DNA of 64,000 nucleotides from the NCBI RefSeq assembly GCF_033880585.1, contig NZ_CP137624.1, positions 3,693,501-3,757,500 on the forward strand, in the 5' to 3' direction. Positions 33,017-33,593 of this stretch are shown piece after piece. The position numbers and the translations under genes were made by a program. Every line of letters starts with the position of its first letter. Position 1 is the first letter of the stretch. Below the pieces are notes generated by a model, which worked only from the letters and a program-made list of their open reading frames with translations, searched no databases and was not told the origin of the DNA. The stretch is from Lysinibacillus louembei (GTDB lineage: Bacteria; Bacillota; Bacilli; Bacillales_A; Planococcaceae).

Positions 33017-33593
33017 CAAAATCCGTCCCTTTCATTATAGAAACGTAAAATCACTTTATAAGTTCCATCATAGCTGATTTTACAACGTATGAAAAGTTAG
33101 AAACAACGCTTTTCCCACTATATTTTAAATTTTTTATTCTATATGCTCTAATGAAAAGGAGCCAATTTTATCATGATGCAGTAGAAACGCCCATCTCTAT
33201 AAGTGATGCGATGAATACTTAGACTACCCTTCATTCAGTGGGTGTCCAAACACTCACTGCATCCTAATAAAGCCTCCGGCGGATGTCAGGGATTTTGAAA
33301 GGAGGCCTGCACGACGCAGGTCAGTTAACCGTTGTCACAGGATGTGACGCTTTTAGGTTAACTTCTACTTAAGTGCAAGCACAATGCAAAATCCCGACGC
33401 AATTACGCCAAGGCATAATTGATTTAAAATTAATACTTTCACGAATAAAATATGTAAAATTTAACACAATCCAAATACCTTTATTAAAAGAAAATAAAAT
33501 TTATAGCCATTAGCAGGATGTTTTATCCTTATATGAGCATTATAAGAGCCTCTATAAAACATACAAAACTTATGTTTACAGCGTTCACAAAAT
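33017..33593. other. Intergenic region upstream of ymfK without a gene
   Basis: No supported coding sequence occurs. Positions 33187-33425 hold a structured repeat-like element (listed separately). The flanks are AT-rich and must contain the ymfK promoter, which I could not place with confidence. Confidence 0.6.
33187..33425. repeat. Composite structured intergenic element
   Basis: GC-richer than its surroundings and built of nested inverted repeats. An outer pair GGGATTTTG (33289-33297) and CAAAATCCC (33387-33395) encloses a CCTGC/GCAGG hairpin (33306-33320). It also encloses a GTTAACC/GGTTAAC stem (33324-33362) with GTCACA/TGTGAC inside. To one side is CAGTGGGTGT/ACACTCACTG (33236-33259), to the other CAATTACGCC/GGCATAATTG (about 33400-33421). 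I recall similar sequences as multicopy intergenic elements in Lysinibacillus, but copy number cannot be checked here. A fragment resembling its ends is at 37421-37450. Confidence 0.65.

Follow-up and report, generated by a model that had tools for sequence, protein, structure and literature searches.

What kind of sequence occupies the gap upstream of ymfK, and does it act on that gene? The window, by which we mean the whole 64,000-nucleotide stretch of DNA analysed, was deposited as Lysinibacillus louembei, and the first-pass annotation had marked positions 33187-33425 within it as a highly structured element. This interval folds at -76.5 kcal/mol, compared with -57.3 ± 4.5 kcal/mol for shuffled sequences (z = -4.3; 0 of 200 shuffles as stable). 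Every inverted repeat named in that annotation, together with the nested plan drawn from them, was found in the window sequence, and the interval does lack an open reading frame (none of 60 or more amino acids). Its limits, however, had to be moved: the outermost stem (33167-33181 with 33257-33271) begins 5' of position 33187, and the element ends at 33423 rather than 33425, so that its extent is 33172-33423. The features are as follows.

33167-33171, plus strand: target pentamer TTTAT, the 5' flank of the element, also present in the empty site of a genome of the same species (L083).
33167-33181, plus strand: 5' arm of the left stem, TTTATCATGATGCAG, target pentamer included; arms pair better with their own partners than with shuffled ones.
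33172-33423, plus strand: whole mobile element, 252 bp, C(A)TGATGCAG...GGCATAATTGAT; the empty site in L083 is exact, and other copies share these ends.
33257-33271, plus strand: 3' arm of the left stem, CTGCATCCTAATAAA, pairing with 33167-33181.
33267-33271, plus strand: putative target guide ATAAA, the last five bases of the left stem 3' arm, from target/guide coupling.
33272-33288, plus strand: conserved core GCCTCCGGCGGATGTCA, near-invariant columns in 34 copies.
33285-33398, plus strand: middle hairpin, GTC-A-GGGATTTTG (33285-33297) with CAAAATCCC-GAC (33387-33398), compensatory changes at 8 of 12 pairs; the arms GGGATTTTG (33289-33297) and CAAAATCCC (33387-33395) pair at 9 of 9 positions.
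33306-33320: CCTGC..GCAGG hairpin, from the inverted-repeat search.
33306-33372, minus strand: nested module, Rfam RF01690 Bacillaceae-1 (B1), matched over the full model at 66.9 bits (gathering score 35).
33323-33330 with 33356-33363: AGTTAACC/GGTTAACT stem enclosing GTCACA..TGTGAC.
33400-33421, plus strand: right hairpin, CAATTACGCC AA GGCATAATTG, an inverted repeat with compensatory changes.
33419-33423, plus strand: right end TTGAT, present in 32 of the 34 copies of alignment A1 (TTCAT in L205 and TTGAC in L049).

The site itself is variable within the species. In Metasolibacillus sp. BHI2-bin.1 (L083), whose YmfK is identical, an empty site, GTATTAATTTTAA/ATAAAATTGG, lies exactly where the window gains 252 bases, and the element is likewise absent from the ymfK site of M. 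meyeri (L084) and Bacillus ndiopicus (L085). The window copy may have been inserted recently, or it may be older and have been lost from the sister genome by precise excision. Elsewhere in the window's genome (G000), one copy (L005, G000:C1:3000952-3001149) interrupts a glyoxalase-like gene whose counterparts in G001 and G002 are unbroken (GTGCGCTTTTAT joined to TGTGAAGGG; ..TTTTAT followed by TGTGAAGGG..), and another (L041, G000:C1:1281297-1281438) interrupts a NUDIX hydrolase gene, likewise unbroken in G001-G003; comparison with the reading frames of these intact relatives reveals no net target duplication at either site. Both insertions are common to two genomes of the window's species. 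Since the bases AT are common to TTTAT and TTGAT, most copies, that of the window included, leave the exact cut register ambiguous; the NUDIX codon context of L041 favours cuts immediately after TTTAW and after TTGAT.

The 5' flank appears to be read by base pairing. It is TTTAT or TTTAA in 28 of 43 distinct copies scored, whose left ends were picked by sequence alone except for L012, which was set by hand. In these 43 copies the arms of the left stem, one of which includes the target, pair at 13.3 of 15 positions with their own partner and at 10.9 with shuffled partners (0 of 2000 shuffles). A fifth target base T goes with an ATAAA guide and A with a TTAA guide in 30 of 30 classifiable copies (20:0:0:10; Fisher p = 3e-8), and target and guide have changed jointly to TTCAT/ATGAA in L205 and to TATAT/ATATA in L010; since final sequences are compared and related copies are not independent events, this shows coupling rather than mechanism.

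The proposal of a dispersed, multicopy, MITE-like repeat was borne out: there are many copies, and their stems covary. A BLAST search with 33187-33425 against the window's genome (one 3.96 Mb contig) gave 59 pieces at about 40 sites; many copies have diverged, and the longest other match there is only about 80% identical to the window copy. The covariance model of the element core (R2) has 52 matches in this genome; the counts are higher in G034 (at least 150), G150 (at least 130), and G149 (at least 104). The copies share a modular plan, consisting of a left hairpin (TTTATCTTGATTCAG...CTGAATCAAGATAAA) with variable inserts, the core GCCTCCGGCGGATGTCA, a middle hairpin (CAGATTTTG...CAAAATCTG) whose loop carries either a short hairpin or a Bacillaceae-1 module, and a right hairpin leading to TTGAT; some copies lack the entire middle part. 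The core GCCTCC could, across the 34 copies of A1, pair with the conserved GGAG(GC) 3' of the middle stem's 5' arm, a possible pseudoknot. In G236 (C6:245513-245767; L299/L308), diverged core units stand in tandem about 150 bp apart.

Repeat matches were found in 15 of 61 relatives, all Planococcaceae. Across the class, R2 detects the core in 9 of the 201 genomes: seven belong to Planococcaceae and two to one other family. Judged by its YmfK neighbours, moreover, the host of the window is itself a Metasolibacillus (Planococcaceae) and not a Lysinibacillus. Given this host and the family-wide spread, the repeat cannot be the Lysinibacillus-specific one that had been suggested. In a genome of another Bacilli family (G332:C14:42565-43354; L295/L312), two copies are located at stop codons in the gaps of a tctC-tctB-tctA-like operon; the open reading frames between them resemble tctC/tctB transporter genes, and an autonomous element spanning the pair was rejected. 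Carriage by plasmids or phages was also dropped, as searches of a plasmid and a phage collection returned no copies of the element.

Alignment of the copies, the check that had been proposed, revealed compensatory changes in the left, middle, right, and Bacillaceae-1 stems. The outcome that the annotation had named as refuting, an absence of other copies or of covariation and conserved stems, thus did not materialise. For the middle and right stems, counted in 34 copies whose middle loop is free of the module, there are 36 double-changed cells compared with 10.6 in shuffles (0 of 500), and 95.3% of cells are paired compared with 29-47% when the arms are slid. The Bacillaceae-1 stems (34 copies) have 112 double-changed cells compared with 28, with 96.8% paired and a single G-U cell.

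The nested module deserves separate consideration, because the role of the repeat had been called undescribed, whereas this part of it is already catalogued as RF01690. Bacillaceae-1 is present in 146 of the order's 200 genomes surveyed, and the four that were searched closely yielded 51-100 matches apiece. It occupies two places within the window-type element, in both orientations, and is also found in other, unrelated repeats. Between two genomes of one species (G000 and G061), two orthologous copies carry the short hairpin in one genome and the module in the other; in the first of them, the flanks and the remainder of the element are nearly identical. The simplest explanation is probably that the middle hairpin was swapped by gene conversion between copies with common outer sequence.

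A functional RNA should prefer G-U over A-C mismatches. Although the counts are small, 48 intact Bacillaceae-1 copies have 4 G-U and 10 A-C cells, compared with 31 and 12 for SAM riboswitches of the same order counted in the same way, so that the constraint looks strand-symmetric and exerted on DNA. Bacillaceae-1 thus looks like a DNA-level mobile module. Rfam describes RF01690 as a small RNA gene, whereas here it is a high-copy module of several unrelated repeats without sign of G-U tolerance. A CsrA sponge was considered, since the plus-strand CACAGGATGTG loops resemble CsrA sites; this idea was dropped because of the high copy number, the occurrence in either orientation within the element, and the variation without strand-specific wobble.

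The module has further surroundings of its own. At L233-L262 (for instance, L243, L248, L252, and L260) its carrier is a different widespread repeat, which has ends of the type TTGATTGGAGTGGAG...CGGAAATCAA and appears to be a second structured mobile element of this family. At L249, L254, and L259 it alternates with GAAAAGCGGAGGCGGCC...CCGACAGGCATAAGAC units, for several rounds at some loci, and at L235 and L262 it lies directly behind terminator-like hairpins (ATCAGTGGGGG...CCCCCACTGA) and is followed by CCCGAACCAATCGG. The ymfJ-ymfK gap of M. meyeri (L084), where the window has its element, seems to hold a similar arrangement of terminator hairpin and Bacillaceae-1.

The orientation of the element is linked to replication. 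For 134 of 175 copies in four genomes (Fisher 7e-13), the lagging-strand template is the strand that reads TTTAT[element]TTGAT; replichores, with origin and terminus, were assigned only from the GC skew of sampled stretches of 15-20 kb. The bias is significant in each genome (33/41 in G000, 36/51 in G034, 41/56 in G150, and 24/27 in G149), and the window copy belongs to the minority. Gene direction is not its cause, because 18 of 20 elements beside genes facing replication in G000 still follow replication. The Bacillaceae-1 module is co-oriented with replication in 109 of 149 cases, and in 97 of 131 when copies near elements among those listed are removed.

Precise insertion, target/guide coupling, and replication-linked orientation are hallmarks of the IS200/IS605 group, and the element has the corresponding features: insertion 3' of a fixed tetra- or pentamer without duplication, hairpins at both ends, an internal guide, and the orientation bias. 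On these grounds we hold, with fair confidence, that the element is a mobile but non-autonomous DNA repeat and that it travels in single-stranded form, along a "peel and paste" route like that of IS200/IS605. In such a scheme, the hairpins would fold while the lagging-strand template is single-stranded; an HUH-type nuclease would cut after the target pentamer and after TTGAT; and the excised single-stranded element would be pasted 3' of another TTTAW exposed on the lagging-strand template. The middle hairpin is exchangeable, either a short hairpin or a Bacillaceae-1 module, the latter being itself a high-copy sequence that lodges in window-type and unrelated repeats alike. The copy upstream of ymfK need not act on ymfK at all.

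The enzyme is the missing piece. A Y1 transposase (PF01797) was not detectable in G034 (at least 150 copies) or G150 (at least 130 copies), both single-contig genomes. Of the family's genomes, 9 of the 15 with the element have such a gene, as do 16 of the 22 without it, so that Y1 genes do not track the element. The two Y1 loci of G000 are not flanked by element ends; for this reason, and because Y1 presence is uncorrelated with copies, a RAYT/IS200 enzyme was rejected as the resident mobiliser in that genome. None of the copies examined was autonomous in the sense of carrying a transposase between these ends. Because Y1 genes do not correlate with the element and are undetectable in G034 and G150, we infer the mechanism from its marks; and as no Y1 gene with matching ends was found, we describe the element as working like IS200/IS605 and do not claim formal membership. 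In G003, a degenerate copy lies directly 3' of a RAYT-like Y1 transposase gene (L188) and is absent from that place in G000 and G002. It is a tentative thought, and a rather doubtful one, that guide-targeted single-stranded DNA elements of Planococcaceae move without Y1, by means of an unrecognised enzyme acting in trans or of host replication and repair proteins, with Bacillaceae-1 as a second DNA-level hairpin element of this kind.

Among other explanations, the copies could be relics whose mobilisation lies far in the past and which nothing but homologous recombination still shuffles. Element-rich genomes lacking Y1 and the divergence of many copies, including the approximately 80% identity of the longest other match in G000, are consistent with this account. 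The ymfK site, occupied in one and empty in the other of two genomes of a single species, and the exchange of modules at two orthologous copies nevertheless show change within the species, and we regard the relic account as unlikely.

The stable fold, the strong covariation, and the small RNA annotation of the Rfam family would all suit a functional structured RNA of ymfK, be it a riboswitch-like leader or a small RNA, with Bacillaceae-1 as its active part. The leader in particular had been proposed for this locus, and the empty site in the same species, as well as the absence in L084 and L085, speaks against it. Copies adjoin unrelated genes in all gene arrangements and without preferred orientation, and two genes are split; Bacillaceae-1 reaches up to 100 copies per genome, with 1 G-U cell against 112 double changes and a G-U:A-C ratio of 4:10 compared with 31:12 for SAM riboswitches. 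This makes an RNA acting on ymfK highly improbable. The arrangements of genes around 33 copies (12 >>, 9 <>, 7 <<, and 5 ><) followed no consistent pattern, and a terminator or leader role was discarded.

We give just as little credence to a MITE of the classical type, whose terminal inverted repeats would be recognised in trans by a DDE transposase of the cut-and-paste kind. The element is short, gene-free, and dispersed, and its target is AT-rich, as such a MITE would be; however, its ends are unrelated rather than mutual inverted repeats (TTTATCTTGATTCAG versus GGCGTAATTGAT), the intragenic sites show no net target duplication, and simple cut-and-paste would not be expected to yield a replication-linked orientation. 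Least probable of all is RNA-mediated spread of a group I/II intron-like or retron-like kind, in which the target would act like an exon-binding site: the fold is elaborate, and a 5' target pairs with an internal guide as in introns, but there is no intron core (Rfam matches at E up to 10 are confined to Bacillaceae-1 and a sub-threshold miRNA model), and the Bacillaceae-1 stems do not tolerate G-U as would be expected for RNA.

Movement as single-stranded DNA, the reading that we prefer, would give a testable and data-rich case of miniature elements of Gram-positive bacteria, present in 50-150 copies per genome and combining base-paired target reading with replication-coupled orientation. The interest of the case lies in the missing enzyme and in the new reading of RF01690. 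The sequence comparisons suggest that a catalogued "small RNA" family is largely mobile DNA, which, if true, would change the annotation of many genomes; they also warn that covariation alone, without a G-U test, is no proof of RNA.

Several known systems resemble the element in part. The pneumococcal BOX is a modular repeat with an optional internal module, and the element is similar in this plan. BOX and RUP are named in PMC3049150. CGTC-tagged REPs, which lack a dedicated transposase (PMC3733652), are matched by the right hairpin, which reads on the minus strand as a palindrome followed by CGTC; REPs, however, are single hairpins of 20-40 bp, whereas here the hairpin forms one end of a modular element of 140-260 bp in Bacilli. 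IStrons of the IS200/IS605 type use a pentamer, for example TTGAT or TTTAT, as the site after which they insert (PMC4227781). Target recognition by transposases of this group involves a guide close to the foot of the hairpin (PMC6006769), and the orientation of the elements follows replication, although other IS families can show replication-linked orientation as well (PMC5371812). With these systems and their non-autonomous derivatives of the PATE/REP type the element shares hairpin ends, insertion without duplication, a T-rich 5' pentamer, a pairing guide, and replication-linked orientation. Unlike them, it has no transposase gene, and Y1 is missing from two of the richest genomes; in addition, its guide is found at the foot of the left hairpin on the 3' side, whereas that of IS608 lies just 5' of the hairpin (unless the mini-hairpin GCC-TCC-GGC is meant). 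The bcr repeats of the B. cereus group are MITE-like (PMC3446304), and bcr1 is TTTAT-associated with a mobility resembling site-specific recombination (PMC6542083). They belong to a different host group, and bcr1 has been reported on B. cereus plasmids, whereas the element has no blastn match in the plasmid collection. Compared by description, bcr1-bcr3 (BCR group A) are, like the element, short, gene-free, high-copy, intergenic, and mobile, with a TTTAT motif, and bcr1 would be its closest analogue.
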